From the IMG/VR virus record IMGVR_UViG_3300042374_000295, positions 1 through 64,000 of that record: 64,000 bases of DNA, one strand, 5' to 3'. The stretch is from a virus. Under the pieces are notes generated by a model. The model had not been told where the DNA came from. It searched no databases and saw only the letters and a list, made by a program, of their open reading frames with translations. Below are positions 263-29,309 of this stretch, piece after piece (the stretch's first letter is position 1; each line of letters opens with the position of its first letter). The translations under genes were made by a program, and so were the position numbers.

Positions 263-264
263 AG

Positions 265-948: not shown

Positions 949-951
949 TTA

Positions 952-3114: not shown

Positions 3115-3133
3115 GTCGTTTGTTACTTGGGAA

Positions 3134-3164
3134 CAAAGTTAGCATTTTTAGGAATACGTTGTTA
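3134..3164 (-). promoter_or_regulatory. Late-type promoter (TAACAAC-N16-TAACTTTG) of the fibre gene
   Basis: On the minus strand TAACAAC (3158-3164) is followed after exactly 16 bp by TAACTTTG (3134-3141). This fits the Bacteroidota -7 consensus TAnnTTTG with a different upstream box. The fibre gene ATG is 20 bp past the -7 element. Confidence 0.7.
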
Positions 3165-3169
3165 TTTGT

Positions 3170-3610: not shown

Positions 3611-3611
3611 G

Positions 3612-5615: not shown

Positions 5616-5619
5616 TAGG

Positions 5620-5650
5620 CAAAGATAATTATTAACACCGTTGGTTGTTA
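5620..5650 (-). promoter_or_regulatory. Late-type promoter of the holin-endolysin operon
   Basis: On the minus strand TAACAAC (5644-5650) is followed after exactly 16 bp by TATCTTTG (5620-5627). Only 5 bp separate the -7 element from the holin ATG, so the transcript is expected to be leaderless or nearly so. Confidence 0.75.
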
Positions 5651-5654
5651 GAAA

Positions 5655-5681
5655 TGAAGAAGCCTCTGCTTTCACAGAGGC
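5655..5681 (-). terminator. Intrinsic terminator upstream of the lysis operon
   Basis: A perfect 7-bp stem, GCCTCTG/CAGAGGC (5662-5668 and 5675-5681), with a 6-nt loop is followed on the minus strand by a T-rich stretch. It separates the gene ending at 5714 from the lysis genes, which restart from their own promoter. Confidence 0.65.
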
Positions 5682-5713
5682 CTCCACCCAATTATGAACC
5701 ATTTCGTAAAATA

Positions 5714-6652
5714 TTACGCAATTTCTAGTCTAGTCTTGAGGTCTTCTAAGAACTCAGGATTTGATCCTTCTAGGTATACATATAGTGCACCCTTTGGATC
5801 CTTTTCGCCTTGCTTGTAGGTAAAGATTGGCTTGCCTTCTGGCTTGCCATCTGGGCCTATCATGAAGAAACCTTTCCTCATTGAGTCTTGGCATATGATG
5901 TTGTTCTCTATCGCGTCTGCAATAACACCCCTTCTCTCAGAGATAACTTCTTTTGGAGCACTGTTCTTGTCAGTAAGCCTTAAGAAGATGTCCATGTTAG
6001 CCGGGTTGTATTGAATCATCTTATCGATAATTAACTTAACTTCATCAGCATCTAGATCGTCAACATTTGGAATCATGAAGTTCTTAGCAACCAACCTAAT
6101 GGTAGCCTCAGAAACTCCGCCGTCAGCCAATGTATTCCAAAGTCTAGCATTTGCTGTAGATGTGATAGCCTTTCTGATAACAGCGTCTCTTCTTTCGCCT
6201 TCAAGGTTTTCTATTTCAAAGAATGCTGATGCATTGTCTTTGTATTCTGGCTTTGTGTGAATTTGGTCTGAGAATCTCCATAAGTAGTAGGCAAGGTCAA
6301 CGTCGTTAACAGCCAATTGGCCACCAACAACTTGAGTTCCGTTGTCTAAAAACTTCATTCCGCCGCCATTTTGTTGTGGAATACCTGCCGATCTAGAGTA
6401 TCTTACCTCAGCCATTTGACCATCGTAGTAAGTGCTAGTAACAAAGCTAAGTTTCATACTTCTAGGCATTAATAATCTGCCTGGATTGTCCATGTCTTTT
6501 TGGATAAAATGAGCAGCATACTTAAGAACTATTGGCTTAATAATTCTACCTGTCTCATCTAAATGTTTTGCAAATAAGCTTTGAAATTTTTTCAAGCTTT
6601 CTTTGTCTTCTGTTTTTGTTCTTTTGAACAACTCGTTGTTTATATATATCAT
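5714..6652 (-). CDS. Virion-associated protein downstream of the major capsid gene
   Basis: The product from ATG 6652 (MIYINNELFKRT) has 312 residues. An upstream in-frame start would add nine residues reaching towards the capsid-gene terminator. The protein is soluble and mixed alpha/beta. Motifs include FLDNGTQVVGGQLAVNDVDLAYYLWR and an acidic C-terminus containing PDGKPEGKPIFTYKQGEKD. I do not recognise a family. Its position between capsid and lysis genes suggests a head or capsid-associated protein. Confidence 0.65.
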   Translation of the reverse strand: MIYINNELFKRTKTEDKESLKKFQSLFAKHLDETGRIIKPIVLKYAAHFIQKDMDNPGRLLMPRSMKLSFVTSTYYDGQMAEVRYSRSAGIPQQNGGGMKFLDNGTQVVGGQLAVNDVDLAYYLWRFSDQIHTKPEYKDNASAFFEIENLEGERRDAVIRKAITSTANARLWNTLADGGVSEATIRLVAKNFMIPNVDDLDADEVKLIIDKMIQYNPANMDIFLRLTDKNSAPKEVISERRGVIADAIENNIICQDSMRKGFFMIGPDGKPEGKPIFTYKQGEKDPKGALYVYLEGSNPEFLEDLKTRLEIA

Positions 6653-6673
6653 AACTATTTTGTTTGAAAAATA

Positions 6674-6710
6674 AAACAATGCGAGATCGTTTAATAATCT
6701 CGCATTGTTT
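6674..6710. terminator. Strong hairpin terminator after the major capsid gene
   Basis: The perfect 14-bp inverted repeat AAACAATGCGAGAT (6674-6687)/ATCTCGCATTGTTT (6697-6710) has a 9-nt loop and is followed on the minus strand by TATTTTTC. It lies directly between the capsid stop (6721) and the next start (6652). Partial termination here would give the capsid gene higher expression than the downstream genes. Confidence 0.8.
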
Positions 6711-6720
6711 AATATGTTAA

Positions 6721-8139
6721 TTATACAGTTTTAACCAAGATCATTTGGTTAGCACCCATGATGTGAGCACCCATGTCAGTTCTGATGAACGATTTGTTTA
6801 CGTCTACAGAACTTACTTTCATACCAGGACCAGCACCATTAACTGACCATACTTCCATTTTACGAGAGTATCCGTTCAAGTTTTTGTAGCGAGCTCCGAT
6901 GTTGTCAAGCATTTTACCAGATTTAGCATCTTTAACTTTGTTCATTGGCAAGAATACACCGTAACCGTCAGTTACAGAGTTTGCGATACCAAATGTTTGT
7001 CTGTTAGAGAACTCCATCATACGCTTGAACATGAATGTTCTTTGAGATTTTTTCAAGTAATTGAAGTCAATAGAGATTGATTTACCGTCTACACCAAATC
7101 TGCTACCTAATTGTTGTTCAATTTCGTAGATGATGTTAGTGTTAGCCAAGTAAGCAACCATTGTGTTTTCAATTTCATCACTGAAAGACTTAGAGGTTAA
7201 ACCTAATACATAGTCACCAGCATACTCTCTATCCAAGATACGACCATAAGCATCGAAATCAGTTACAGAGAATGAACCAGGAACGTAAGTCTCAGTGTTA
7301 CCTTGAGTTTTGATTGTAGGGATTAAACCGTTAGTAGTATTAACTGGCAATCCTGTAGTAGGATCAGTTACACCGTTATTAACACTTGCTTCACCGAACA
7401 ATAATGCACCAGATACTTGTTTGCCAATTCTCCATTCCATATCCATCCAGTTTAAGTTGTACCAAGAGTTACCACTAGCAATTTGCTCACTACCGTTAAC
7501 GCTACCTGGAACCTCTACCCAACCATCAAACCAAGTTTGGTTTGTTAATTCAGTACCAGTTACAGCTAAAGTTTCCTTCATGATTTGAGTGTAGTTTGTA
7601 CGCTTAGTAGCACCAGGAACAATTCCTTTAGGTTGGTCAGAACCCTCAGCGAATGCGTTAGACACTAAAGACATTTCCTCACCAGCAGCAACTGATGCAG
7701 GTATTGTGTTTGCGTTTAATGCATTGATAGTCAATACGGGAGCACTTGGAGTACTTACGTTGATGCTTGTGATGATACCTAATTGACCAGTTTTAAAGAA
7801 CACAATGTCATTTAAACGTGGGTAGAAGTTATTGTTTGTGTCAACGTCAGCAACAGCCAATGTGATTAAAATAGTATCTTGAGCCGGCACAGCGCCAGAA
7901 ACTCTACTAGCTAATGATCTAGATTTGAAAGTCGGGTTTTTCAATTCGTTCTCATAGTGAGAGTAACTAGTAGCAGCTACTGGTTTAACGAATCCTAATT
8001 TCTCCAAGGTTAAGAACCAAGAAGAACCTTGATCGCCGTAGCGATTAAACATTTTTGATAGAACGTCCGGTTTGTGGACGTCGTAGGCAGACACAAAGTT
8101 ACTTTGGTATTGTGCCGCGATTTGAGCGATGTTAGCCAT
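6721..8139 (-). CDS. Major capsid protein
   Basis: The 472-residue protein (MANIAQIAAQYQSNFVSAYD) has the size and composition of an HK97-fold capsid subunit. It has an N-terminal helical arm, a central beta-rich region and a C-terminus with NSVTDGYGVFLPMNKVKDAKSG and SFIRTDMGAHIMGANQMILVK. It sits downstream of terminase, portal and a likely scaffold, ends in a very strong terminator, and uses an A/T-rich leader without Shine-Dalgarno sequence. The identification rests on gene order, size and general resemblance, not on a diagnostic motif. Confidence 0.82.
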   Translation of the reverse strand: MANIAQIAAQYQSNFVSAYDVHKPDVLSKMFNRYGDQGSSWFLTLEKLGFVKPVAATSYSHYENELKNPTFKSRSLASRVSGAVPAQDTILITLAVADVDTNNNFYPRLNDIVFFKTGQLGIITSINVSTPSAPVLTINALNANTIPASVAAGEEMSLVSNAFAEGSDQPKGIVPGATKRTNYTQIMKETLAVTGTELTNQTWFDGWVEVPGSVNGSEQIASGNSWYNLNWMDMEWRIGKQVSGALLFGEASVNNGVTDPTTGLPVNTTNGLIPTIKTQGNTETYVPGSFSVTDFDAYGRILDREYAGDYVLGLTSKSFSDEIENTMVAYLANTNIIYEIEQQLGSRFGVDGKSISIDFNYLKKSQRTFMFKRMMEFSNRQTFGIANSVTDGYGVFLPMNKVKDAKSGKMLDNIGARYKNLNGYSRKMEVWSVNGAGPGMKVSSVDVNKSFIRTDMGAHIMGANQMILVKTV

Positions 8140-8171
8140 TTTTAATTTTTAATTTAAGGTTTTGTGAGATC

Positions 8172-9338
8172 TTAATTCCCGTTCATATACCTTTCCCACT
8201 TCTCGGCGATAACGTCGGAGGCGTTCTTGTCTACTCTTGGGGCCGCAGGCGTCTCTACCTTTAGCTGTGAAGGGTTAGTTATTTCCTTCTCCACCTGGAG
8301 TCTTACACTGCCCTCGGTTCTTGCAGCAAGCTTACTTAGCACCGTTGATAGGTTTTTCGCTAAGACAAGGTTGTACTGTTCTGATACCGCTTCCACTAGG
8401 TTCTCCTGTGTCAACTCCAACCCGGAGCTTACCACTTTGTTTACTACTAGCTTGGCCTGTGCTTTTGCCTCTTCTGGTGTCAACTCTATATAGTCCACCG
8501 TCTCCATAATGTCTTGGCCATTTTTGTCTTTTCCCTTCGGTACTTGTACAGGTATTTTTCCAAATATTTTATCGACGTTTTGGTCAACGACTTCTTCCCA
8601 TTGCGCTTTGAGTTGTTGTCGTTGCTGAATAGATTCATTTACTGTGAGGACTGGTCCGGCTGTTTTAACCTTGCCCATAATGTCCTCGATTTCTTTTGTT
8701 GCTTGGACAGCCTTACGTTCAAGTCTGAACTGTTCCATCTCTGCCTTTTCTTCTGCCTCTTCAAGTTCTTCGCCGTAAAGGTCATCGCTTACCTGAGTCT
8801 TGTACTCACGTTTTAATGACTTTGTTAGCATATCCTTCTTGTCAATTAGTGACGGATCCTTTAAGATCTCCGCCAATACTAGTGCCTCGATTGGATCCTT
8901 AGTCTCAGCTGCGTCAAACTGTTTTACTTGTTTAATAAAGCTAGCGTCTTCGATTCCTGTCTGAGCAGCGAATGTGTTCATCTCCTCCAAGTTCTTAGAG
9001 TGGAACTTTGCAATTGACTGTCCCTTTAGTTCATCAAATTGAGTCCTTGCCTCTTGTAGGCTTGGTAGCTCACTTAGAACTCCCTTAAATGACTCCAACT
9101 CGTCTAGAGTAGTAAAGTTCATTCCAAAGGTTTCGTTGATTGTCTGGAGCCTTGTGTCGTCACCCGTAGGCGTAACAACTGGTCCCGTTGATGCAGGTGG
9201 ATCATTGCTGATTCGTCCTGTTAATTCTGTTGGCTCAGTCGGTGTGACTGGGGCAACTGTCTCACTAGGTGCGTCTGGACTGGCTGGTGTCTCTAACGCG
9301 CTTAGGAAGTTTGCTTTTTCTTGATCAAATTCTCCCAT
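8172..9338 (-). CDS. Probable capsid scaffold protein
   Basis: The 388-residue product is highly charged and largely helical. Residues 15-60 are Pro/Thr-rich and disordered (TPASPDAPSETVAP). Residues about 170-215 form an acidic coiled-coil stretch (GEELEEAEEKAEMEQFRLERK), and the C-terminus is short and charged (EKWERYMNGN). A disordered, coiled-coil protein immediately upstream of the capsid gene is the usual arrangement of a scaffold. It has its own late-type promoter at 9356-9386. No protease domain is visible. Confidence 0.7.
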   Translation of the reverse strand: MGEFDQEKANFLSALETPASPDAPSETVAPVTPTEPTELTGRISNDPPASTGPVVTPTGDDTRLQTINETFGMNFTTLDELESFKGVLSELPSLQEARTQFDELKGQSIAKFHSKNLEEMNTFAAQTGIEDASFIKQVKQFDAAETKDPIEALVLAEILKDPSLIDKKDMLTKSLKREYKTQVSDDLYGEELEEAEEKAEMEQFRLERKAVQATKEIEDIMGKVKTAGPVLTVNESIQQRQQLKAQWEEVVDQNVDKIFGKIPVQVPKGKDKNGQDIMETVDYIELTPEEAKAQAKLVVNKVVSSGLELTQENLVEAVSEQYNLVLAKNLSTVLSKLAARTEGSVRLQVEKEITNPSQLKVETPAAPRVDKNASDVIAEKWERYMNGN

Positions 9339-9355
9339 ACAATTGTAATATTGTG

Positions 9356-9386
9356 CAAAGTAAGAGAATTTATGTCTTGGTTGTTA
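9356..9386 (-). promoter_or_regulatory. Late-type promoter of scaffold and capsid genes
   Basis: On the minus strand TAACAAC (9380-9386) is followed after exactly 16 bp by TTACTTTG (9356-9363), one mismatch from TAnnTTTG. The scaffold ATG is 18 bp past the -7 box. Confidence 0.68.
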
Positions 9387-9683
9387 CATTTTTGTTAAAT
9401 AAGTCAAGCATATGCATAGGTGTCCCATTATCCGTGAAGGAGTAGAACGGGAAACTGTTCAGCTATTTATGCACTTCCGACCGTGTCCAATTCTTATGTA
9501 TTCTCTAGTATAACCTAGAATGGAGGTTTCGTTTATTGATTTAGAACCTTTCGGCTTCACGTGCCTGTTGTCAGGTTGGACAGAGCAGGACTTTGTTAAA
9601 TCAATATCATAAATAACAGTTTTTTTAAGGTCTACGGTTCACAAGTTTTTGGTAAGGTACTAGATATCAACCCACTTTTGACA

Positions 9684-9785
9684 ATAAAAAAACCCCAAGT
9701 AGCGGAATTACTTAGGGCTTTCTAAACGGTTGTAACGGATCACTCCCGTAAAAAGAACTTCTATTGCAATTCCGCTACAATAATC
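9684..9785 (-). ncRNA. Probable small RNA 2 (own promoter and terminator)
   Basis: A promoter (9791-9822) should start transcription near 9785. About 100 nt downstream, the hairpin CCCTAAGTA/TACTTGGGG followed by seven T forms an intrinsic terminator (9684-9717). Near the 5' end, GTAGCGGAATT (minus strand, 9768-9778) is perfectly complementary over 11 nt to AATTCCGCTAC (9699-9709), which includes the terminator loop and one stem arm. The RNA can therefore close a long stem or form the terminator, but not both. No ORF is present. Function unknown. Confidence 0.62.
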
Positions 9786-9790
9786 TGGTA

Positions 9791-9822
9791 CAAAATAACA
9801 CAATAGTTTTCATATATGCAAA
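9791..9822 (-). promoter_or_regulatory. TTTGCAT-type promoter of small RNA 2
   Basis: On the minus strand TTTGCAT (9816-9822) is followed after 17 bp by TTATTTTG (9791-9798), one mismatch to TAnnTTTG. Confidence 0.6.
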
Positions 9823-9922
9823 TATTTTATTACTAAATTTACTAAACCTGTAAAAAACTTGATATAATTTGTCTTAAAATTACCCATTCTGTCTTAAAAT
9901 ATTTCATATCGCAATATAAAAT

Positions 9923-9983
9923 AAAAAAACCCAAGCAGTGAAGTACTTGGGAATCTTTAATGATACAAATGTTTAGTTTTGTA
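9923..9983 (-). ncRNA. Probable small RNA 1 (own promoter and terminator)
   Basis: A near-perfect promoter (9990-10020) should start transcription near 9983. The hairpin CCCAAG (9946-9951 on the minus strand)/CTTGGG (9930-9935) followed by seven T terminates it about 60 nt later. The terminator hairpin resembles that of small RNA 2 (AAGTACTTCACTGCTTGGG against AAGTAATTCCGCTACTTGGGG), which suggests duplication. No ORF is present. Confidence 0.62.
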
Positions 9984-9989
9984 AGACTG

Positions 9990-10020
9990 CAAATATAAAC
10001 CTAAAAGTTTAAAATGCAAA
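9990..10020 (-). promoter_or_regulatory. TTTGCAT-type promoter of small RNA 1
   Basis: On the minus strand TTTGCAT (10014-10020) is followed after 16 bp by TATATTTG (9990-9997), a perfect match to both boxes. It begins 20 bp past the stop of the preceding small gene. Confidence 0.75.
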
Positions 10021-10039
10021 ATAAATATTAACTTTTAAG

Positions 10040-10183
10040 TTAACCCTGGCCCACATTTTTCTTGAAATAGTTTTTGCTATTCTTGTTTGTTGACTGTTTT
10101 GCCTTTGCGTGTATACCTTTATTGGTCTTCTTGCTCTTTACCTTAAAGGTTGCTGTCGTTGCTGTTGCTTTCTTTGCTGCCAT
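10040..10183 (-). CDS. Small basic protein following the portal gene
   Basis: This 47-residue, Lys-rich protein reads MAAKKATATTATFKVKSK and ends KNYFKKNVGQG. The ATG overlaps the portal stop codon (TAATG), so translation is probably coupled. I recall similar short basic proteins with a KNSKNY...GQG ending next to portal or terminase genes of Bacteroidota phages. The role is unknown; DNA binding or a packaging accessory is possible from its charge. Confidence 0.75.
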   Translation of the reverse strand: MAAKKATATTATFKVKSKKTNKGIHAKAKQSTNKNSKNYFKKNVGQG

Positions 10184-12660
10184 TATACTTGTGGTGGTTG
10201 TTGAGGTTGTCCTTGTTGTTGCATCATTTGTTGTTGTTGTTGTAGAGCGGCCTGTTGCTGTTGTTGCATCATCTGTTGTTCATTTTGCTTCTCAGACAGG
10301 TCGTGCTGGTGCTGCATATCGATCGCCTTCATTGTGGCCTGGTTGTCTACCTGCATACCCTGAGTCAGTCTAATCTCGTCCATCTTGAAGTAGTGCTGCA
10401 TCTCTAGTGTCTTGCGCTTTTCTTCGTTTTCATGAGTTATCTTAGCCATCTCAGCGTCTATAATAGCCTGCTCCTGCTCACCTTTTTGTTGTTGTAGCAT
10501 TTGGTTCTGTTGACCTTGCTGCTCGATAGCCATCTGACTCTGTTGCTCTTGTTGCTTTGTTACAATTTGTTCCCTGTTAGCAATATAAGCCTGTGCCATC
10601 TTTAGCATACCCTTATTTACAAAGTCCTGTACAATTAAATAGTCAGAGTAACTTAGTAATGGAACACCTTGTCTTCCTACGCGCATAGCCTCCAATGCTG
10701 CCTGCAATAACGCCTGCTTTTCCTGTTGGTCAGGTTTTGCCTCAATCCTTACGTTGAACATTGCGTTGTTTATCTCTGCACCAATCTTTAAGGTTTGAGT
10801 TATACTAGATCCAAGGGCCTTGTAGTAACTTAGCTCGTAAGCACCGTTGTATTTAACAAGTAACTGTATTCTTAGTGCAGCGTTTCTAAACGATCTCTCC
10901 TTAATTGTAATGTACGCTGAGTACATAGGCCTCAATGTTGTGGATGTTGCCTGTAGTGACATCTCTGACACACCAACCGACTGGTCACGCATGGGAGACG
11001 TAGCGTCAGCAACGCTACTTATACCTATTATCTGACGGATCATGTTAATATCGCTAGACATCAACATCAAAAATTCCTGTCCTGCGTTACCTAGACCACC
11101 CTGCAACTCCTGTATAGGCTTGTAGTTTGTCTGTGACGGCATATAGGTCCTGTGGGTTGTAGCCTGGTACAGTATGTCACCCGTCTGATTCCTTATTTTA
11201 AGCACCTCTAGAGGCGTTAACTTATTGTTACCTATGCTCACGTTCAACAACGATCCGTACTCTATTGCTAGACCGTTAGGTGCAGCCTTGGCCTTTGCGT
11301 TCTGTAGCTTTAACCATGACAACTGAATGCTATCCAATAAAGGTATCATCCTCTTAACCATGCTACCAGACTTCATCTTGTAGGCGTGGAAGCTTAGGTT
11401 AGCCTCTGATGGTGTTGGTCTAGGAATGTCAAACTGGTGACCGTAGTCCCAGGCGTACTCTGTTCCAACTATCCACTTGCACTTGTAGACCATTAAGGTC
11501 TTGCTTATGTTTGTCTTTCTCTTGTCTCCCGTCCTTACCTTGCCAAACTCGTCCCTGTGTACCACTGTCTCTCCCTTAGAGTTTGTTCTCTCCGTGGTGT
11601 ACTTAAGGTCGTCCGACTTGTACTCGCAGTCTAATACACATATTCTAAATGTGTCGTACTCGTATCTACCAAACTGGTCAATGTACCAGTTGTTTATAAT
11701 TGCCGGGTTGTTGTAGTGGTTAATTGACTTCTGTGCTATCTCTACCAACTCCTCCTCTGTAAACTGAGGTGTGCCGTCTGGCTTGTTCATAGCCCTAACC
11801 TCTGCAATGGTGTAGAATATATACTCACCTGCAAACGGCATATTCTTAAACTCTGACTGGTGGACGTATGGTATAACGCACAGTGCAGGATCGCAGTATC
11901 TAATCTTAATCTTCTGAGTCATTGGATCTAGATAGTCTTTAGCAACCGCAACACCTAACTCAAACAAGTCTTCAAATAATTTTCTTTTTACTTCCTTCCA
12001 CTCTGAAAGGTATGCCGTGTAGCGTAGTGCCTCCTCTATTGATATCTCACTCTTAAGCCTGAAGCCTCCCATTGAGGCAAACATCTCAAGCTCTTTAAGT
12101 GTGTCTGGAACGTAGTCTGGAGTTTGTTGTGTTATACCGGCCGCGTTCATGTAGTCTATAATATCACTCAATTCTTTGTTGGCCCATAGCATCCACTTGT
12201 CCTGCTCTTTTTGTGCGCTAGACTTCTCGTCAACGCCGTCGGCATAGATGTCGTGCTCCATGTCCTCAAATGTTCCAAGGATTACGTTCTTAAAGTTTGG
12301 TGCAACGGATAGTATCTCCCAGTTGATGTTCATGTAGCCCTGTCTAACAAAGTCAGACGGCTGTTGAACGGGACTGCTTGTTGAGACAGCTCCTGCCGGT
12401 ACTGTTGGCGTTGGACGTTTGGTTATTCCAAGCCAGTCCATGTACTGGAGCTTATCCTGGTTACCGTTACCATACGCGCGGTATCTTGCAAACAGGTCAA
12501 CGTCAGAATAGTTTATCCCTGTTAAGTTGTTTCTGTACAACGTGTGTATTGCCTGGCAGTACTGTACGTTCCAGTCTTTCTTTAGTTTTATAGCAGGATC
12601 TACGCTATGTGACGGGAAGTTATACGCCCCGGTTGTACTATTGTTGTTAAAATTCTCCAT
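10183..12660 (-). CDS. Portal protein
   Basis: The 825-residue protein follows the large terminase with a TAATG overlap, the standard terminase-portal arrangement. The core contains segments typical of a portal clip and wing, such as MKSGSMVKRMIPLLDSIQLS and a long helix at about 440-460. From about residue 690 the C-terminus is a Gln-rich, low-complexity helical tail (long runs of Gln with Met), which is probably disordered or coiled and faces the head interior. The length is at the upper end for portals. Assignment rests on order, size and general pattern. Confidence 0.82.
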   Translation of the reverse strand: MENFNNNSTTGAYNFPSHSVDPAIKLKKDWNVQYCQAIHTLYRNNLTGINYSDVDLFARYRAYGNGNQDKLQYMDWLGITKRPTPTVPAGAVSTSSPVQQPSDFVRQGYMNINWEILSVAPNFKNVILGTFEDMEHDIYADGVDEKSSAQKEQDKWMLWANKELSDIIDYMNAAGITQQTPDYVPDTLKELEMFASMGGFRLKSEISIEEALRYTAYLSEWKEVKRKLFEDLFELGVAVAKDYLDPMTQKIKIRYCDPALCVIPYVHQSEFKNMPFAGEYIFYTIAEVRAMNKPDGTPQFTEEELVEIAQKSINHYNNPAIINNWYIDQFGRYEYDTFRICVLDCEYKSDDLKYTTERTNSKGETVVHRDEFGKVRTGDKRKTNISKTLMVYKCKWIVGTEYAWDYGHQFDIPRPTPSEANLSFHAYKMKSGSMVKRMIPLLDSIQLSWLKLQNAKAKAAPNGLAIEYGSLLNVSIGNNKLTPLEVLKIRNQTGDILYQATTHRTYMPSQTNYKPIQELQGGLGNAGQEFLMLMSSDINMIRQIIGISSVADATSPMRDQSVGVSEMSLQATSTTLRPMYSAYITIKERSFRNAALRIQLLVKYNGAYELSYYKALGSSITQTLKIGAEINNAMFNVRIEAKPDQQEKQALLQAALEAMRVGRQGVPLLSYSDYLIVQDFVNKGMLKMAQAYIANREQIVTKQQEQQSQMAIEQQGQQNQMLQQQKGEQEQAIIDAEMAKITHENEEKRKTLEMQHYFKMDEIRLTQGMQVDNQATMKAIDMQHQHDLSEKQNEQQMMQQQQQAALQQQQQMMQQQGQPQQPPQV

Positions 12661-14840
12661 TAGTAATTATATGTCTCTACAAAGGTATAGTTAATTTCAA
12701 TATCTTGTTTTTGTTGCTTTTGTATATCCGGCAGGTAGTGGCTTATGCCTAGCATGGCGTATCCCCCTGCGGTAAACATATCAAAGTTCGTCATATCGTC
12801 CACCCCCTTGATATCCCTCACCTCTATTAGTAGTTGAGAGTGTTTCTCCTTCATGACGTGCCTCTCTATATAGGTCTGGTAGAGCTGAAATATTTTTTGT
12901 TTAACCTTTTCAGTAGTGTCACCACCTGCTATCATGTCGTGCTTACCCTTCTCCTGCCTGTGGATTAACATTGCGCCGTATCCGTTCTCCTCAAAGTGCT
13001 CCCTGACGAATGGCACGTTTGTCTCTGGGAACATTGGACAGCCCCAGTACACGCACATCATAATCATGTCGTCTCCATACTCCGGCTTTGTGTCTGGTCT
13101 GAACGAGTAGGTGCAGACAAACCTGTTGCTCTGCCACTCCTCGAATGGTTTCTCAAACGGATCCAGCATAATGTCGTGGCCCCAGAACACAGCACCTGCA
13201 CCGTTGGACCTTTTCTTACCCTTGGTTGTGTTAGCCTTGAACGGATCCGCACCTGCGCAGAACTGTACGTTGTCGGCCACGAATGACTCTATGTTAGAGT
13301 CCCAGGTAACCCTGTTGGCCTTGTCTGCCGTTAGTTGGTATGACATCTCAAACCTTCCGTTCTCGTGCGGTATAAACTTAACACCACTCTGGTACGGTGT
13401 TCCTATCCACTCAAAGTTACCCTTTACTGTCCCCGTCGGATCGCTTGCAATCTCGTCAAGCCTGTCCTCTATCTTGGATATGTTAAAGAATGGATCCTTT
13501 GAGTTGGATCTGAAGCATCCCCTGTACGTTGTCGGGTGTTCACGCTGAAATTGTAGCAGCTTGTCCTTCTTTGGTAGAGTCTTTAGGTAGTCTATTGTGT
13601 TGAGGATGTGCTCCTTAGCTCCAACCGTTCCCTTTATATCTTTAGCCTGTTGCTCTGTTGGGTTCTCAATAACGCTGTTGCCGTACCTGTCAATGTAACC
13701 CTCTAGTCCGTCCCATGTAGGTGTGAACAGGACGTATAAACCTGTAGCGGTCTGGCCGTTTGCGCTACGCTTCCCAAACTGGGAATTTTCGCACAGCTCC
13801 CTGAACTGCTCACCACCACCTAGCTCCATCTCACCCACCGTTGAGGTGTGTATACTGAAACCGTGTATCTTTGTGCCGGCTCCAGTTGACAGACACAGCT
13901 GAGCAACCTCCCACCTCTTGTTAATGTCTATGCTTGCCGCCTTACCAACCTCCTCGTGGTGGTAGAAGTAGAGCTTTGTTCCGTCATAGGCTGTCTCTAT
14001 AGAGGACCTAAAACTTATCTCACTACCTAAGGACTTGTTTGACTTGTACTTAATACCTGCCTTACCCCTGGACGATGCCGCCCTGAACGCTAGGAGTGCC
14101 TTTGGATCGTCGCCACCGTTGTGGTTGGGCTTGAAGAAGAATGGCATACTGCGCCATGGGTCTATGATGTGTTTCTGGAATACGTCCTTGCCGGAGTCGT
14201 CCGTCATTGACTGAATACCACCACGGGCCTTTATTAGTAGTGTTATAATGCAGTAGTGTATGCAACTAGTCTTGTAGGTTGCGCCCTCGCGCCTGTGCTT
14301 GGGGTAAACAAACCCGTAACACTTTGGATCGTTGTGGCAGTACCTTGCAAAGTGGAAGAAACGTCTGTCCCTGTCACGATACTCAGGCAGGCCGTGGTCC
14401 AACTCAAAGTAGTTTAAGTAAAAATAGTGCCAACCGTCAATATAAGTAGGGACTCCGTTGTTAAAGAACCAGTAACCGTCTAGCCTGCGCCTCCACTCCC
14501 TCTTTATGAACTTAAGTTCCTCCTTGTAGTATTCGGGTTGCTCCTCCATTCTGCCCCATATCTCGTCCTGCGTTAGGAAGTAGCCGTCCTCGTCCTGGGT
14601 CTGTTGCAGCTCAATTATTTTGGATGGGACAATGGTCCTCTCAAACTTTTGGCCTTGAGCCAATTGGCCAAAACCAGGTATTTTATTGAGTTCTGGCGGA
14701 CTTGGTAGCGTAACCCTTATCGTGTCAAGGTCCTTGTCCTCCTCGTTGAAGTCAATAAACTCTTGAGCAGGCCCGTAGGTCTCAAGCACCTTAGCCTTGA
14801 CTCCCCACCTCTTTGCGTTCCTTACTATATCAATATCCAT
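12660..14840 (-). CDS. terL: Terminase large subunit
   Basis: This 726-residue packaging motor has a preceding segment GVPTYIDGWHYFYLNYF (about 129-145), a deviant Walker A-like loop PKHRREGATYKTS (180-192), an HHEE motif (294-297) as the Walker B/catalytic Glu candidate, and AGADPF (529-534), whose Asp532 should be the first metal ligand of the RNase H-like nuclease. The C-terminus has GGYAMLGISHYL. An N-terminal extension of about 100 residues precedes the ATPase. The start overlaps the preceding gene by 11 bp. Confidence 0.9.
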   Translation of the reverse strand: MDIDIVRNAKRWGVKAKVLETYGPAQEFIDFNEEDKDLDTIRVTLPSPPELNKIPGFGQLAQGQKFERTIVPSKIIELQQTQDEDGYFLTQDEIWGRMEEQPEYYKEELKFIKREWRRRLDGYWFFNNGVPTYIDGWHYFYLNYFELDHGLPEYRDRDRRFFHFARYCHNDPKCYGFVYPKHRREGATYKTSCIHYCIITLLIKARGGIQSMTDDSGKDVFQKHIIDPWRSMPFFFKPNHNGGDDPKALLAFRAASSRGKAGIKYKSNKSLGSEISFRSSIETAYDGTKLYFYHHEEVGKAASIDINKRWEVAQLCLSTGAGTKIHGFSIHTSTVGEMELGGGEQFRELCENSQFGKRSANGQTATGLYVLFTPTWDGLEGYIDRYGNSVIENPTEQQAKDIKGTVGAKEHILNTIDYLKTLPKKDKLLQFQREHPTTYRGCFRSNSKDPFFNISKIEDRLDEIASDPTGTVKGNFEWIGTPYQSGVKFIPHENGRFEMSYQLTADKANRVTWDSNIESFVADNVQFCAGADPFKANTTKGKKRSNGAGAVFWGHDIMLDPFEKPFEEWQSNRFVCTYSFRPDTKPEYGDDMIMMCVYWGCPMFPETNVPFVREHFEENGYGAMLIHRQEKGKHDMIAGGDTTEKVKQKIFQLYQTYIERHVMKEKHSQLLIEVRDIKGVDDMTNFDMFTAGGYAMLGISHYLPDIQKQQKQDIEINYTFVETYNY

Positions 14841-15468
14841 CCTCGTCGTCTGTTACAGATTCTGCAATTCCTTTCTCTCTTATGTCCTGCGCAATGTCCT
14901 CAGGTGATAGTCGGAGCTTGTCGCTATTGATTGACTTGTACAGGGACTTTAGTAAACCCTTGTCCTGGTCGTGCTCTAGGATGTCGTTGATTGCTACCTC
15001 ATACGCAACCTTTGTCTTCTCAAGGTCCGTGATTTTAGCTGACTGTCCAAGTAGAACGTCCTTTAAAATCTGATAGTACATTGTTTCTAGTAGCACAACG
15101 TGGGAGTAACCTACGTTACAGTGCAACTTTACAAACGCTACAATCATGTCAGCCACGTTAGGACTTCTTCCCTGTAGCACATCTTCCACCTCTGGGGCAA
15201 ATGTCTTGCCTTCCAGGCCGTACCCTGCGTCAATTATTGCACGTACCTTTCTCTGTGTGATGTCCTTGTACTTAACCCTGTAGGGTGAGTTTTTGTCGTA
15301 CACATATGCTATGTATTTGATAATCTTATTGTTATCTAAATTCTTTAGCTTTTTCTCAAACTCTGAGTAGAGCCTAAGTTCTGGGAACTGTGTTAAAAAA
15401 CTTACGCCCTCGTCAGCTGCGTAAACATTAAACATCATTCGTTTGAAGTCGTCGGGAGTAAATTCCAT
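14830..15468 (-). CDS. Conserved-context protein upstream of terL (small terminase candidate)
   Basis: This 212-residue, mostly helical protein starts MEFTPDDFKRMMFNVYAADEG and ends with a very acidic tail (SVTDDEDGY). It overlaps terL by 11 bp. Position, size and helical composition fit a small terminase subunit, but no DNA-binding motif is clear. A -7-like TAACTTTG sits 6 bp before its ATG. The assignment is inference. Confidence 0.6.
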   Translation of the reverse strand: MEFTPDDFKRMMFNVYAADEGVSFLTQFPELRLYSEFEKKLKNLDNNKIIKYIAYVYDKNSPYRVKYKDITQRKVRAIIDAGYGLEGKTFAPEVEDVLQGRSPNVADMIVAFVKLHCNVGYSHVVLLETMYYQILKDVLLGQSAKITDLEKTKVAYEVAINDILEHDQDKGLLKSLYKSINSDKLRLSPEDIAQDIREKGIAESVTDDEDGY

Positions 15469-15478
15469 TATTGCAAAG

Positions 15479-16039
15479 TTACGATTTATTTTTTATCTTG
15501 TTTCTATTTGAGGTCATTGACATGGGCCTGGTGTTGTCCTTGATCTTTTGTATTACTGATTCTGGTATCTTTAGCTCGGTGTCGTTGTTCATTACAACCT
15601 TACCAAGTGGGTACTCGTAGTTTAGGGTGAGCACTATCTTGGTGTCCTGGAACTCGTACTTTGTTATGCAGTACGCCTCGGTTGATTTTATTAGTATGTG
15701 CCCGAAATCTATTTCGATACGATTAGATACGCAAATATCCATAAGCAGATACGCAGAAAGTTTCCTAATAGAAAACAATTTGAAGTCTGTGCGTATGTTT
15801 ATCCTGGCCTTGTTGTGCCTGAGCACTTCCTTCATTGTAGCCCGGCTAACTATTGGTGCCCGTATCTTGGCCAAGGTTCTTAGTACCATCATCCTCTTCC
15901 TGCACTGGTAGTAAGGTGTTCCGCAGTGGTTGTAGTGCCAGCCCTTGTCGTAACCTACGCTTGCGGCAAAGTCATGCAACTCCTTGAACCCGTCTGCCGG
16001 GTTGTCGCTCGCAAAGATATATAGGTCTGTGTAGATCAC
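15479..16039 (-). CDS. Unknown protein, N-terminus resembling DUF4031
   Basis: The 186-residue product probably starts with GTG at 16039, which overlaps the TGA of the nuclease gene (GTGA) right behind AAGGAG, one of the few Shine-Dalgarno-like sequences here. The N-terminal 50 residues (ASDNPADGFKELHDFAASVGY...HYNHCGTPYYQCRKR) resemble small DUF4031-type proteins. The rest is not recognised and ends in a basic tail (NRNKIKNKS). The family match is weak. Confidence 0.6.
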   Translation of the reverse strand: MIYTDLYIFASDNPADGFKELHDFAASVGYDKGWHYNHCGTPYYQCRKRMMVLRTLAKIRAPIVSRATMKEVLRHNKARINIRTDFKLFSIRKLSAYLLMDICVSNRIEIDFGHILIKSTEAYCITKYEFQDTKIVLTLNYEYPLGKVVMNNDTELKIPESVIQKIKDNTRPMSMTSNRNKIKNKS

Positions 16040-21232: not shown

Positions 21233-21815
21233 TAACTATCTATTTCTCAGAGGCTTACAAGCAAGTCTCACGCATTCATTGGGTTTGCCGATATTCGGTG
21301 TTTTTGATGCCTAACTTTGGCCAATAATTGCTGTTTTTTGGCTTAAAAATGGATTCTTCTAAAATTATTTACAAAATTATTCTCTCTCATTTTCAATAGG
21401 TTACAATCTATTTTGTACTTTTTTTAAAAATATATTTTTTTTATTGAATTATCTGCCCGAGTATTGCACCACTGAATCGGACTATTAATATTCTCCCACA
21501 TTCAGCAGTTCTTTCACTTATCTTATGTATGTATGCGAGGCCTCTAGTAAGGCACGACATATTGCACCATATATACACAAGACATTTGTGGTTCTGAAAC
21601 CACACCGACCGAAAATCTAATGCCGTGAGGCAGTAAGAGGGTTATCCAAACTATGAGCAGACAAAGTAAGACCATAGGGAAACAAGTAGGGAGTGTGGCG
21701 AAGAGTTCTTTGAAATATAGGGTTTGTTACCCGACCAATTGGCACGATAAGTAGTAGGCAACCCACGAGGGGCAAAAGCCGAAGCGAATGTGCATAATCT
21801 AACAATTCTTCTATA
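21233..21815. other. Noncoding stretch with RNA-like structure
   Basis: No convincing ORF is present. A weak terminator candidate (CCGATATTCGG, 21288-21298, then TGTTTTT) follows the winged-helix gene. Further on are a 10-bp direct repeat TATTGCACCA (21462-21471 and 21560-21569), a perfect 7-bp hairpin TGTGGTT-CTGA-AACCACA (21587-21604), and a less AT-rich segment (21605-21800) with several short complementary runs. It leads directly into the first tRNA-like element. It may be a structured RNA or a long leader. Confidence 0.5.
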
Positions 21816-21896
21816 AAGCAGATTTAAAAATGGTGTACAAGTTTAAAGGTCGACATCGGCTCTTGATGTGAGGTTCGATTCCTCGCTCTGCTTCCA
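21816..21896 (+). ncRNA. tRNA-like element 1 (large, aberrant)
   Basis: The ends pair as AAGCAGA (21816-21822)/TCTGCTT (21887-21893) and are followed by an encoded CCA. The T-arm TGAGG-TTCGATT-CCTCG contains the consensus GGTTCGATTCC. A D-arm-like TTTAAA/TTTAAA hairpin with TGGT in its loop and an ACATC/GATGT hairpin are also present. However, the latter loop (GGCTCTT) lacks the universal T33 and there is no variable region. It is tRNA-like rather than a normal tRNA. It lies 14 bp before the next ATG. Confidence 0.6.
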
Positions 21897-22355: not shown

Positions 22356-22577
22356 ATGAGCAAAGCAATAACCCTATCGCTATGGATGACCAACTCCAAG
22401 CTAAAAATAGACCAACACGAACGCGAAATATCGCAAGACTACCAAAGGCTTAAAGAATTAAACAAAGAAATGGCTAACCTATTCGTATCAATTGATAACC
22501 ACAATAAAGAAATCGAATTTCTAGAGTTCAGTATAGCTGAGACAAGAAAGCAGAAGGAGGCTCTTAAGAATGCATAG
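22356..22577 (+). CDS. Small coiled-coil protein
   Basis: This 73-residue protein has a near-continuous heptad pattern (residues 15-70: KLKIDQHEREISQDYQRLKE onward) and should form a coiled coil. The leader AATTAATATC before its ATG is the recurring start leader of this operon. It overlaps the next gene by 8 bp. Function unknown. Confidence 0.7.
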   Translation: MSKAITLSLWMTNSKLKIDQHEREISQDYQRLKELNKEMANLFVSIDNHNKEIEFLEFSIAETRKQKEALKNA

Positions 22578-22767
22578 TCGCACAATCAATGTCACGCCCA
22601 ACTATAGCAAGCGTACATTCACACTCAGAGTAAAGTGGAGCGATGGTGACACCTCAAAGTATCGCACATCGCCTATGGGCAAGGCAGAGTTCGAGGAGTG
22701 TACTTATAACACACAAAGCGATTGGGCACACTTTCTACTTAAAAATGAGTGCACCAAACTAAACTAG
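22570..22767 (+). CDS. Hypothetical protein ending in a tRNA-like element
   Basis: The 65-residue basic protein MHSRTINVTPNYSKRTFTLR is probably a beta-sheet domain. Its TAG stop codon (22765-22767) lies inside the acceptor stem of tRNA-like element 2, so cleavage there would trim the mRNA right at the stop. Family unknown. Confidence 0.7.
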   Translation: MHSRTINVTPNYSKRTFTLRVKWSDGDTSKYRTSPMGKAEFEECTYNTQSDWAHFLLKNECTKLN

Positions 22768-22805
22768 TGGATGGTCGCAGAGGGGTTCGACTCCCCTCGC
22801 ACTAG
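22764..22805 (+). ncRNA. tRNA-like minihelix 2 (acceptor stem plus T-arm)
   Basis: A 6-bp acceptor-like stem, CTAGTG (22764-22769)/CACTAG (22800-22805), encloses a 10-nt connector (GATGGTCGCA) and a perfect T-arm GAGGGG-TTCGACT-CCCCTC with the consensus GGTTCGACTCC. D and anticodon arms are absent. The 3' end continues CAAA. It cannot serve as a decoding tRNA; a processing signal or remnant is more likely. Confidence 0.7.
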
Positions 22806-22826
22806 CAAATTTAACCAATTAATATA

Positions 22827-23096
22827 ATGAACTACAAATTAATTCAAAAAAGACAAAAAGAGTCGGGCTACAATCAAATGCAAAGACTCATTAACAATGG
22901 CTCAGTATGGCTTATGGAGGGCTCAATGGGACGCGAAGCAATGCACTTGCTAGAGTGTGGGGCGTGTATGTTACCTACAAAAGCGTTCCGTGACTTCTAT
23001 GGCAATCGTATCCCCTCTAGGTACGAACTTAAGTCGGGTAGCAAGGGCACATATGCCAATAGCGTAGAGTATTATCTAAACAACGAAGCAATTTAA
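22827..23096 (+). CDS. Hypothetical protein
   Basis: An 89-residue protein starting MNYKLIQKRQKESGYNQMQR, with a Cys pair (LLECGACML) in the middle and a C-terminus ending SVEYYLNNEAI. The ATG is preceded by AATTAATATA and lies 22 bp after tRNA-like element 2. No family recognised. Confidence 0.7.
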   Translation: MNYKLIQKRQKESGYNQMQRLINNGSVWLMEGSMGREAMHLLECGACMLPTKAFRDFYGNRIPSRYELKSGSKGTYANSVEYYLNNEAI

Positions 23097-23108
23097 CCAA
23101 TTAATATC

Positions 23109-23348
23109 ATGAAAAAACCAATCAACCATTGGGATTCCTATGGCGTATTCGCTATAGCAACCTACATTCAACAAGCAGAAGCAATAGATAGCAATGAAGC
23201 AAGAGACCTTGACTCATTGTGGGATGAAGCTATTTTTCTTTACAATAATTTTGTTGTAAGCAAATTTAACGATGTCAACCAAAGCGAACTTGACTGCATA
23301 TATCAATTCCTTGACGCTCCTATGACCTTAGACAATGTAATAGGCTAA
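23109..23348 (+). CDS. Hypothetical acidic helical protein
   Basis: A 79-residue acidic protein, MKKPINHWDSYGVFAIATYI, predicted helical. The start leader is AATTAATATC, identical to that of neighbouring genes. Family unknown. Confidence 0.7.
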   Translation: MKKPINHWDSYGVFAIATYIQQAEAIDSNEARDLDSLWDEAIFLYNNFVVSKFNDVNQSELDCIYQFLDAPMTLDNVIG

Positions 23349-23366
23349 ACCAAATCAATTAATATC

Positions 23367-24140
23367 ATGAACAAATATCAAATCAAATTAACAAGAGTGT
23401 GGGACACCTACACCGAAATCGAGGCTCTGACAATGGAAGACGCCTTGACAATGTATGACACCATGGTCACCAATGGCACGATGGCTCAAAAGGAGCTAGA
23501 ACAAATGGGCATCTCTGACGAGAGCTACAAGGTGACCTTGCTAGAGCGAGAATCTGACTCAACGCCCACACCCCCAAAAGTGTGGCGCGACAATGACCAA
23601 GTCGAATGGCAATACTACGCAAGAGAATGCAGTGTAACGGGTGAGGGGATGTATGAAGGTTGGGTGGTGGATGGTGGCTTAATGTATTTTAAGTACGAAA
23701 GCGATGCCATTGAGTATTGCAAGAATCACCTAAACATGACCTTGGCTGAGGCGTACGAGGATAGCGAGGAGAACGGAGGTGACGGCTTTTATTGGACATC
23801 ATGGGAAGACGAAAGCGAGTACCAATATCGCCTCGTTGATGGCGTTTTAATTGAGGAGGGTGACGAGCGCTTTGAATATGATTACGAAGAGCCTATAGAT
23901 GAGGACACACTAAAGCAAGAGTACATGACAAGCACTGAAGAGATGCAACATCGCATGGCAATGATTCTAGACGACATGAAAGTAATCAGAGCATTTATTA
24001 ATGAGCAAGGCTTGAACGAAGTATTTCAGAAGCCTACAAGCATGGCTGATGAGTGTTGGACTCACATTAACAACATAGAGATAGCGTGTGACATTGATGA
24101 CAACGAGTGTCTGACATGGTCAAAGTTCAGCAGAGGTTAA
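23367..24140 (+). CDS. Hypothetical acidic protein
   Basis: The 257-residue product (MNKYQIKLTRVWDTYTEIEA) starts with a small alpha/beta unit (1-60) also seen in other short phage proteins that begin KYxIxLtrv. It continues with a very acidic middle (about 115-190, rich in Glu, Asp and Tyr) and a helical C-terminus. Strong acidity could mean DNA mimicry or inhibitor function, but this is speculation. It is preceded by the AATTAATATC leader. Confidence 0.68.
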   Translation: MNKYQIKLTRVWDTYTEIEALTMEDALTMYDTMVTNGTMAQKELEQMGISDESYKVTLLERESDSTPTPPKVWRDNDQVEWQYYARECSVTGEGMYEGWVVDGGLMYFKYESDAIEYCKNHLNMTLAEAYEDSEENGGDGFYWTSWEDESEYQYRLVDGVLIEEGDERFEYDYEEPIDEDTLKQEYMTSTEEMQHRMAMILDDMKVIRAFINEQGLNEVFQKPTSMADECWTHINNIEIACDIDDNECLTWSKFSRG

Positions 24141-24163
24141 CTGACGAGCCTTCACTAGGCGAA

Positions 24164-24181
24164 ACAAGGCGAAAGCCTTGT
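24164..24181 (+). other. GNRA-tetraloop hairpin between two genes
   Basis: ACAAGGC-GAAA-GCCTTGT is a perfect 7-bp stem capped by a GAAA tetraloop, 18 bp upstream of the DUF932 gene. It lacks a T-run, so an mRNA-stabilising or processing element is more likely than a terminator. Confidence 0.6.
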
Positions 24182-24198
24182 CTTAATCATATATTATC

Positions 24199-25089
24199 AT
24201 GAACCAAACAATTTTCAATCAAACATTAGACCTTTTAGAGTCTACTAACTTAAATTGGTCAGTGACCAAAGAGCCTTTATTCACTGCTGATGGCAAAGCA
24301 TCCGAGACCTTTGGAATGTACCGCAGTGACACAAACGATTGGCTTGGGAGCGTGGGTAACAAGTACGCACCCATGCAGAACCACACACTCGCTGAGACCA
24401 TTGTAATGGCGTCGCAAGGCATCCAATGTCAAAAGCATCGTGGTGGCTCGTTAGATGGTGGTAGCAAGGTGTTTATCCAATGCGAACTGCCCGATGAACA
24501 CATTGGCAATAGTGGTGTGAAGCGTTGGCTGACTGCACTCAACTCGCATGACGGCTCATCGTCTATTGGCTTTGGCTCTACATCGCAAGTGGTGTTTTGT
24601 CAGAATATGTTCCATAAGGCGTTGAAGGAGTTAGCCAAGTTCAGACACACGGCATCTGCTGAGGAGCGTGTACGCCTAGCCTCTGAGGACTTGAACAAAG
24701 CGTTGTTGTCTGACAACATCCTAATGACTGACTTCAAGCGTATGGCAGACCTTAAGATAGGCGAGGAGGTGATAGAGCGTGTAATTAGACGCATATTCAC
24801 ATTGGACGCAAAGCAGACTCAGACAAGCGATGTGTCAAGCCTTAAAAAGAATCAAGTCACGGCATTTGCTGATAGCCTACAAACGGAAATTAACACCCAT
24901 GGTCAGACCTTGTGGGCATTGTTCAACGGAGTAACGCGTTACACCAACCACTACGCATCTCCTAAGGATGCCGAAGCAAAGCAAACATACCTTATGGTGG
25001 GTGGTGGCTACAAGAACAATCTGCTAGGCTTCGAGGAGTGTATGAAGTGGCTAGGCGAGAACACTAAGCAAGTTTATTCATTGGCATAA
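24199..25089 (+). CDS. DUF932 family protein
   Basis: The 296-residue protein has the DUF932 pattern: WSVTKEPLF near residue 20, GMYRSDTNDWLGSVGNKYAP with QNHTLAE at about 40-65, then FIQCELP, LTALNSHDGSSSIGFGSTSQ with VVFCQNM, and a C-terminus with LWALFNGVTRYTNHY. The family is common on phages and plasmids of many hosts, often in early or accessory regions, with no settled function. tRNA-like minihelix 3 begins 7 bp after the stop. Confidence 0.85.
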   Translation: MNQTIFNQTLDLLESTNLNWSVTKEPLFTADGKASETFGMYRSDTNDWLGSVGNKYAPMQNHTLAETIVMASQGIQCQKHRGGSLDGGSKVFIQCELPDEHIGNSGVKRWLTALNSHDGSSSIGFGSTSQVVFCQNMFHKALKELAKFRHTASAEERVRLASEDLNKALLSDNILMTDFKRMADLKIGEEVIERVIRRIFTLDAKQTQTSDVSSLKKNQVTAFADSLQTEINTHGQTLWALFNGVTRYTNHYASPKDAEAKQTYLMVGGGYKNNLLGFEECMKWLGENTKQVYSLA

Positions 25090-25096
25090 AGCCTCT

Positions 25097-25143
25097 AGGG
25101 TGTATGGTGAGCAGTAGGGGTTCGAATCCCTTACCACCCTCCA
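25097..25143 (+). ncRNA. tRNA-like minihelix 3 (acceptor stem, T-arm, CCA)
   Basis: AGGGTG (25097-25102) pairs with CACCCT (25135-25140), followed by an encoded CCA. The stem encloses a 12-nt connector (TATGGTGAGCAG) and a T-arm TAGGGG-TTCGAAT-CCCTTA with the consensus GGTTCGAATCC. The connector shares ATGGT..GCAG with minihelix 2. D and anticodon arms are absent. Confidence 0.7.
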
Positions 25144-25161
25144 AATTTAATAAAAAATATC

Positions 25162-25356
25162 ATGAACAAATTAACCAAACTAACAAGAGAGTTATTGCTA
25201 ATGCATTTAGACGATAGCTACAAACAAATTAGCATCATTAGAGACACCATTAAGGTAATCGAGGTGGAGTATGTCCAAGATTTACGAATAGACATATACC
25301 TTCTACAACAAAAAATAGAAAGCATAAGCACAATTATAGCCGACAACAAATTTTAA
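25162..25356 (+). CDS. Hypothetical coiled-coil protein
   Basis: A 64-residue helical protein, MNKLTKLTRELLLMHLDDSY, with heptad-like spacing through most of its length. It starts 18 bp after tRNA-like minihelix 3. Function unknown. Confidence 0.65.
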   Translation: MNKLTKLTRELLLMHLDDSYKQISIIRDTIKVIEVEYVQDLRIDIYLLQQKIESISTIIADNKF

Positions 25357-29149: not shown

Positions 29150-29150
29150 G

Positions 29151-29309
29151 ATGTCAAAAGCAAAAGAATTGTTCATGCAGATAAGGGAGAGGGAGTCTAA
29201 CAAGGCTCTCTCTCTTGAGTCTGATACACCAAAACACTTACAACCAATTAAGAATCATGAAAGTAAAAAAAGTATCAATCAAGGACTTCAAAGTCCTAAA
29301 GAACATTGA
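29151..29309 (+). CDS. Small hydrophilic protein overlapping the ATPase gene
   Basis: The 52-residue frame MSKAKELFMQIREREsNKAL starts 1 bp after the SSB-like stop and runs 53 bp into the ATPase gene in another frame. Its N-terminal KAKELFMQIRERE segment resembles short helical proteins found beside phage replication genes. Coding status of the overlapping C-terminal part is uncertain. Confidence 0.5.
   Translation: MSKAKELFMQIRERESNKALSLESDTPKHLQPIKNHESKKSINQGLQSPKEH

Follow-up and report, generated by a model that had tools for sequence, protein, structure and literature searches.

Two short elements that resemble tRNAs stripped of the anticodon arm, hereafter mini-tRNAs, lie at gene junctions of a rightward operon in the IMG/VR virus record IMGVR_UViG_3300042374_000295, the first 64,000 nucleotides of which (positions 1 to 64,000) constitute the window analyzed here. 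A preliminary description of this DNA had placed them at 22764-22805 and 25097-25143 and had divided each into an acceptor, a connector, and a T arm, an anatomy that is borne out by the sequence and by matches to a covariance model (R2, see below). Another long junction of the operon is occupied by a hammerhead ribozyme. The features, together with their counterparts in the nearest relative (viral contig L003), are as follows.

21815-21892, plus strand: degenerate tRNA-like element in the leader of the first open reading frame (ORF) of the operon; AAGCAGA/TCTGCTT plus CCA, T arm GAGG-TTCGATT-CCTC
22570-22767, plus strand: 65-aa ORF, unknown, upstream of mini-tRNA 1
22764-22805, plus strand: mini-tRNA 1; acceptor CTAGTG 22764-22769 / CACTAG 22800-22805; counterpart in L003 at 8089-8138
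22806-22826, plus strand: 21-nt leader (CAAATTTAACCAATTAATATA), would-be 5' end of the downstream message as judged from the position of N73; ATG at 22827
22827-23096, plus strand: 89-aa ORF, weak phrog_3908, downstream of mini-tRNA 1
24135-24188, plus strand: hammerhead ribozyme with an open stem I, at the junction (24141-24198) that separates ORF 23367-24140 from the DUF932 gene; conserved in L003 at 9933-9986
24199-25089, plus strand: DUF932 / phrog_1221 gene, between the hammerhead and mini-tRNA 2
25097-25143, plus strand: mini-tRNA 2; acceptor AGGGTG 25097-25102 / CACCCT 25135-25140; connector TATGGTGAGCAG; counterpart in L003 at 10895-10945
25141-25161, plus strand: predicted 21-nt leader including CCA; ATG at 25162
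25162-25356, plus strand: 64-aa ORF, unknown, downstream of mini-tRNA 2

In both mini-tRNAs, a short connector joins a 6-bp acceptor to a T-stem of 6-7 bp that is closed by a canonical TTCGANT T-loop, and neither has an anticodon arm. In mini-tRNA 1, the connector GATGGTCGCA (22770-22779) carries the D-loop remnant ATGGT and leads into a T arm formed by GAGGGG (22780-22785), the loop TTCGACT (22786-22792), and CCCCTC (22793-22798), followed by an unpaired G at 22799; the 5' strand of its acceptor contains the TAG stop codon of ORF 22570-22767. In mini-tRNA 2, the connector reads TATGGTGAGCA(G) (listed above as TATGGTGAGCAG), the T arm is GTAGGGG-TTCGAAT-CCCTTAC, with the stem formed by 25114-25120 and 25128-25134 and the loop at 25121-25127, and CCA is encoded at the 3' end (25141-25143). 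The missing anticodon arm, the single encoded CCA, and the stop codon within a stem had all been noted previously. The shared ATGGT is the 3' half of the tRNA D-loop, including G18 and G19, which dock into the T-loop and thereby build the tRNA elbow (PMC4810234). Each window element can form this elbow, since G18G19 of the D-loop persists alongside an acceptor stem and a T arm whose loop is canonical. The hallmarks of a tRNA-derived structure, namely a TTCRANY T-loop on a 5-bp stem, a D-loop GG, and an acceptor stack of about 12 bp, are present in both.

Neither element is a tRNA proper. ARAGORN reports 0 tRNA genes in the window, Rfam gives 0 matches there at gathering threshold, its tRNA models match neither mini-tRNA at E ≤ 10, and no cloverleaf with an anticodon arm exceeds the thresholds of the tools (RF00005 or ARAGORN) at these sites. 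The elements also differ from an intrinsic terminator, in which a T-run follows a G+C hairpin: their tails read N73-C-N-A, with no T-run. The folding energy of the two elements is not significant (z of -1.8 and -0.7) and is not used as evidence, and the minimum-free-energy fold of mini-tRNA 1 pairs differently from the proposed acceptor. The case for these elements is built on comparison.

Recurrence and placement of mini-tRNAs in viruses

The pattern ATGGTN{3,14}GGGTTCGANTCCC, in which no acceptor stem is required, was scanned over IMG/VR viral contigs (scan 1). A Watson-Crick acceptor of at least 6 bp is found in 29 of 126 sites, against 1.3 expected from 500 shuffles in which sites exchange their 3' flanks (maximum 6), and the distance from ATGGT to the loop is 14-18 nt in all 29. 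When the spacing is fixed (scan 2), 40 of the 99 viral-contig sites have an acceptor, with 2.3 expected. Across 84,980 bacterial and archaeal genomes (species), only five of the 115 matches to the scan 2 pattern are mini-tRNA-like, and the mini-tRNA is therefore mainly viral. The number of elements is probably underestimated because the patterns demand a GGG-type T-stem plus ATGGT, a combination that most copies in Gordonia phage VanLee would fail. Mini-tRNA-like elements are also seen in bacterial assemblies, at 5639-5688 of a Parabacteroides metagenome-assembled genome (MAG; L191), 5950-5999 of a Bacteroidales MAG (L197), and 1335-1384 of a Prevotellaceae MAG (L258), all of which could be prophage or phage contigs.

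Two covariance models carry the comparison further. R1, built from 44 seeds, has the two mini-tRNA sites as its sole matches in the 68-kb record at the E limit applied; since its seeds were picked for having acceptor stems, the covariation within it does not count as independent evidence. R2, built from 57 elements of other contigs with this phage and L003 excluded, recovers mini-tRNA 1 at 38.6 bits (E 5.5e-9), mini-tRNA 2 at 40.1 bits (E 1.8e-9), and three L003 elements at E 1e-10 to 8e-7, values that are rough owing to shortened calibrations and slightly dependent on R1, with which the R2 rows were retrieved. Among paralogous copies in Gordonia phages VanLee and Morgana, paired positions show 68 double-change cells versus 25 in shuffled data, and the covariation score is 0.50 versus 0.14.

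L003 is the single near relative found in viral contigs for the DUF932 protein (98% identical over the best segment), and no DNA relatives were found among named phages. It retains both elements with pair-preserving changes, for example, CTAGTG/CACTAG to CTAGTA/TACTAG, and has a third mini-tRNA ahead of its homolog of ORF 23367-24140, a position at which the window has none. Dozens of unrelated viral contigs, and cultured viruses too, carry elements of this kind, so the absence from relatives that the preliminary description had named as a refutation is not what is observed. Genome-wide, R1 counts 14 elements in G004, seven in G022, and six each in G002 and G030, on a single strand within each record. 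Mycobacterium phage Rockstar has one element, between gp76 and gp75, and in the stretch searched, the mini-tRNA is essentially the sole similarity of VanLee and Morgana to Rockstar. In a single operon of VanLee (71.8-82.06 kb), 15 of the 16 gaps of at least 75 nt hold a model match, and the remaining one (76217-76388) holds an element recognized by eye, with a longer D arm. The haloarchaeal virus HRTV-8 has elements at junctions 128->127 and 125->124, and HF2 has one at HrrHF2_005->010 and a weaker match at HrrHF2_030->035. At the junction of Mycobacterium phage BabyRay homologous to that of Rockstar, the element is absent, and the gap is 38 nt versus 80 nt in Rockstar. No model matches were obtained in Lambda, T7, SPO1, or TM4, and those in T4, crAss001, and phiKZ score a weak 19.7-24.3 bits and could represent genuine tRNAs.

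Two further groups deserve mention. The contig L156 (G004), probably an archaeal virus, encodes within 1-16000 a Rad3-type helicase 53% identical to those of haloviruses, along with 14 mini-tRNAs with a conserved acceptor and leader hairpins of the CTGGCAT..TGCCA type. On the minus strand of the Lactococcus phages TP712 (L398, 10480-10680) and PLgT-1 (L399, 10010-10100), tRNA-like pieces ending in CTTGCTA lie upstream of terS; their connector lengths vary, and in PLgT-1, a full tRNA-Lys stands just before.

Placement was assessed with ORF-based gene calls for 62 elements from 18 viral records plus the window. A gene on the same strand lies upstream in 54 of the 62 and downstream in 53, and the elements typically begin 0-20 nt past a stop codon and end 20-50 nt ahead of the next start, in agreement with the annotated genes of VanLee. 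Thus, these are tRNA-like structures at mRNA junctions on the coding strand, as are the marks of tRNA punctuation and the t-elements discussed below.

Tails, leaders, and hammerheads at the junctions

The mini-tRNA tail reads N-C-N-A and not CCA. Among 148 distinct elements from 55 loci (locus-weighted), C occupies position 74 in 77% but position 75 in only 9%, where T is found in 55%, and position 76 is A in 63%. C74 is among the residues that pair with bacterial RNase P RNA in the RCCA interaction (PMC11143913), and CCA is an antideterminant of RNase Z (PMC4919913), with which the avoidance of C74-C75 would fit. Immediately downstream, a stem of at least 5 bp starting no more than 6 nt from N73 is found in 69 of 147 elements, compared with 13.9 ± 3.5 in shuffled sequences, 26 in the next 36 nt, and 24 in the 36 nt upstream; examples include G022, G029, VanLee, Morgana, the archaeal-virus-like G004, HRTV-8, and HF2. 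Structures at or near the 5' end are known to stabilize bacterial mRNA (PMC3997798). In the right arms of VanLee and Morgana (L436/L438), the leaders share CACGGCACCCAAC ahead of the ribosome-binding site, besides the variable hairpin.

The element at 24135-24188 has the CUGANGA / GAAA / NUH core with three stems that characterizes hammerheads; its core, CUGACGAG..CGAAAC..GUC, is the sole match in 64 kb, and its fold has a z of -3.25, with an Rfam Hammerhead_1 score of 17.9 bits, under the gathering score of 34. It is expected to cut after C24182, which would leave a 16-nt leader. The layout mirrors that of the mini-tRNAs, with the stop codon TAA in the first strand of stem I and then this leader of 16 nt versus 21 nt. 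In L003, four successive long junctions hold a mini-tRNA, a mini-tRNA, a hammerhead, and a mini-tRNA; hammerheads also stand at junctions of mini-tRNA operons in L038 and L052, and HRTV-8 has an Rfam-level type II hammerhead upstream of a helicase gene. A hammerhead 13 nt upstream of a start codon has been described in HF1/HF2 (PMC3088659). Other junction hammerheads in viral contigs, all on the minus strand where coordinates are given, are found in L170 (13361-13407 and 15256-15296), L038 (7398-7437), and L306 (8718-8758), as well as in L458 (three copies) and L498 (two copies); in these five contigs, they generally lie 0-13 nt past the stop codon, and TAA or TAG is often within stem I.

Two other features of the window concern its intergenic DNA. 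In the degenerate element at 21815-21892, the connector measures 46 nt and includes AATGGT as well as a pseudo-anticodon hairpin (ACATC/GATGT), but U33 and a variable loop are absent. ARAGORN does not report it, Rfam scores it as tRNA-Sec at 20.2 bits against a gathering score of 47, and R1 gives 16.9 bits; it may be an intermediate between tRNA and mini-tRNA. An inverted repeat, GAGAGGGAGTCT..GGCTCTC, lies in an intergenic stretch conserved in both relatives (window 29150-29256 and L166 15387-15493).

Probable processing by host enzymes and rival explanations

We consider it likely that mini-tRNAs serve specifically to punctuate mRNA and that RNase P and RNase Z of the host cut them. The rightward operon would be transcribed as a polycistronic RNA in which the junction folds into an anticodon-less tRNA, with the acceptor stacked on the T arm and the connector GG docked in the T-loop. 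Host RNase P would cut on the 5' side, at or beside the stop codon, and host RNase Z after N73, so that the downstream gene is released on a separate message, its leader about 20-50 nt long and in many cases capped by a 5' hairpin, and the mini-tRNA of about 45 nt would be discarded. The structure at RNA level, the retained elbow, the strand and placement, the tail, and the downstream hairpin are seen in the sequences themselves; the cleavage, the enzymes, and their order are inferred from them, as is the presumed benefit, separate stability and expression of neighboring genes. The parts retained (the stack of about 12 bp, the TTCRANY loop, the D-loop GG, and N73-C74) are those that the two enzymes recognize: both clamp the elbow (PMC4919913, PMC4810234), acceptor/T-arm hairpins suffice for cleavage by RNase P (PMC11143913), and weakening of the elbow by G18C;G19C nearly abolishes processing of one mitochondrial tRNA, not of a nuclear one, by the RNase Z ELAC2 (PMC11996679). 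The preliminary description had proposed that the elements, as minimal substrates of RNase P, RNase Z, and the CCA-adding enzyme, could mark sites of mRNA cleavage. This idea gains from their recurrence in unrelated phages with the same placement and strand, from the enzyme-recognized parts, from the frequent 5' hairpin, and from the hammerhead at the other long junction; the encoded CCA, in contrast, proves exceptional among elements that normally avoid C75, and the cleavage itself stays a prediction.

Several observations weigh against punctuation by the two enzymes. In some elements, mini-tRNA 1 among them, the upstream stop codon lies within the element or is split by it, and a message cut there by RNase P would lose its intact stop; this would matter only if the cut preceded translation. 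The CCA encoded by mini-tRNA 2 departs from the avoidance of C75 and would disfavor RNase Z there, haloviral elements lack C74, and the downstream hairpin is absent from both window leaders. Approximately a quarter of the elements overlap small predicted ORFs, which are probably spurious, and many annotated intergenic gaps of other phages have no such element. In addition, none of 14 hammerhead-bearing viral records in an independent sample contains a mini-tRNA; the two devices are therefore usually not in one genome, and their general co-occurrence is rejected. Because this reverse test is negative while some operons hold both, hammerhead and mini-tRNA are read as alternative devices for the same job, occasionally combined in one operon.

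Among the rival explanations, processing by a single enzyme, either RNase P alone (with C74 kept and a wobble pair possible between N75 and the GGU loop) or RNase Z alone (with CCA avoided), is the least distant from punctuation by both, being a sub-case of the cleavage model whose probability overlaps with it; we regard it as possible, if rather doubtful. The mini-tRNA would then stay on one message as a 3' or 5' cap, possibly protecting the 3' end if that message is the upstream one. The tail composition (C74 77%, C75 9%) fits a compromise and does not separate the enzymes, whereas features for both are present, and stop codons in the 5' strand would be removed by RNase P only in a subset. 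It is unlikely that the operon merely offers a convenient site for expressing the mini-tRNA and that this RNA, small, stable, and perhaps carrying a CCA tail, is the actual product, with a role in trans, for example, as a decoy that diverts tRNA-cutting defenses or tRNA enzymes. Such a role would suit the many copies in several genomes (14 in G004, 16 in VanLee), the retained elbow, and the habit of phages of carrying tRNAs in operons; however, the position is fixed relative to the stops and starts of different genes, a hairpin follows the element as if the new 5' end mattered, and T-stems vary within a genome, acceptors differ among phages, and there is no anticodon.

Equally unlikely, or marginally more so, is a stable structure that remains uncut and serves as a 3'-end protector, translational insulator, or weak terminator. 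The location directly past stop codons and the thermodynamically stable hairpin core would be in keeping with it, but TTCRANY, the D-loop GG, C74, and the two-helix coaxial layout are conserved while the stems change freely, and a plain hairpin needs none of these; moreover, no T-run follows the element, and a self-cleaving ribozyme substitutes at equivalent junctions. Finally, the elements might be functionless remnants of eroded tRNA genes or attachment sites. Phages do carry tRNAs, the element at 21815-21892 resembles a decaying one, and some Lactococcus copies lie near a real tRNA-Lys, yet this explanation is highly improbable: it is contradicted by the compensatory stem changes, and it sits poorly with the repeated loss of exactly the anticodon arm, the presence of up to 16 copies at successive junctions, and the bias in strand and position.

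Relation to known systems and significance

The principle is known from mitochondrial punctuation and plant t-elements, and anticodon-less elements in DNA viruses of prokaryotes lie outside those groups. In mitochondrial tRNA punctuation, RNase P and RNase Z release individual mRNAs by cutting at the tRNA structures that separate the genes, as would happen in the phage, but the marks there are working tRNAs, whereas those of phages and archaeal viruses lack the anticodon arm and, in about half of the cases, are followed by a capping hairpin. In mascRNA/MEN beta, a tRNA-like element sets an RNA end via RNase P and RNase Z; unlike the phage elements, these are single mammalian long noncoding RNA loci with a larger structure. 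The t-elements of plant mitochondria, which also resemble tRNAs and lie where mRNAs end, are processed by RNase P/Z and receive a CCA tail but no amino acid (PMC11658184). The phage elements are far shorter and have no anticodon arm, and they do not belong to that class, which is defined by homology to a full tRNA gene and a typical tRNA structure, given the missing arm and the negative Rfam and ARAGORN results. Minimal model substrates of RNase P have the same helices and loop, the missing arms being dispensable for this enzyme (PMC11143913), but they are synthetic, and the natural phage elements also retain the D-loop GG. Phage hammerheads such as the HHphage of HF1/HF2 (PMC3088659) resemble mini-tRNAs in being cleavage elements directly upstream of a gene, at equivalent junctions in the window, L003, L038, L052, and HRTV-8, and differ in that they cleave themselves, making a host enzyme unnecessary. 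The SAS/ESAS of cluster K mycobacteriophages (PMC3203893) are also repeated intergenic elements just ahead of start codons, but they are 17-bp inverted repeats; identity with ESAS (a 17-nt imperfect inverted repeat near SAS, present in TM4) is rejected, as R1 has no match in TM4. Searches of the openly licensed PMC literature gave no description of tRNA-like elements that lack the anticodon arm and stand between phage genes, and the class is not in Rfam 15.

With somewhat less assurance than for the window itself, we favor the view that widespread, unannotated mini-tRNAs are the standard punctuation of certain operons of tailed viruses of bacteria and archaea, acting via host RNase P and RNase Z, often hairpin-capped, interchangeable with hammerheads, and having arisen repeatedly from tRNAs by loss of the anticodon arm. 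Cultured pairs such as Rockstar/M. smegmatis, VanLee/G. rubripertincta, and HF2/Halorubrum are suited to direct testing. If this view is correct, the regular gaps of 80-100 nt in some phage operons, for example, that of VanLee, would be explained, and gene callers and tRNA finders would gain a class that is now missed. Mini-tRNAs would also serve as naturally occurring minimal substrates of RNase P, RNase Z, and CCA enzymes and as a compact part for multiplexed RNA processing. Viruses of bacteria and archaea would be seen to divide their messages into single genes by means of pared-down tRNAs, as otherwise happens in organelles.

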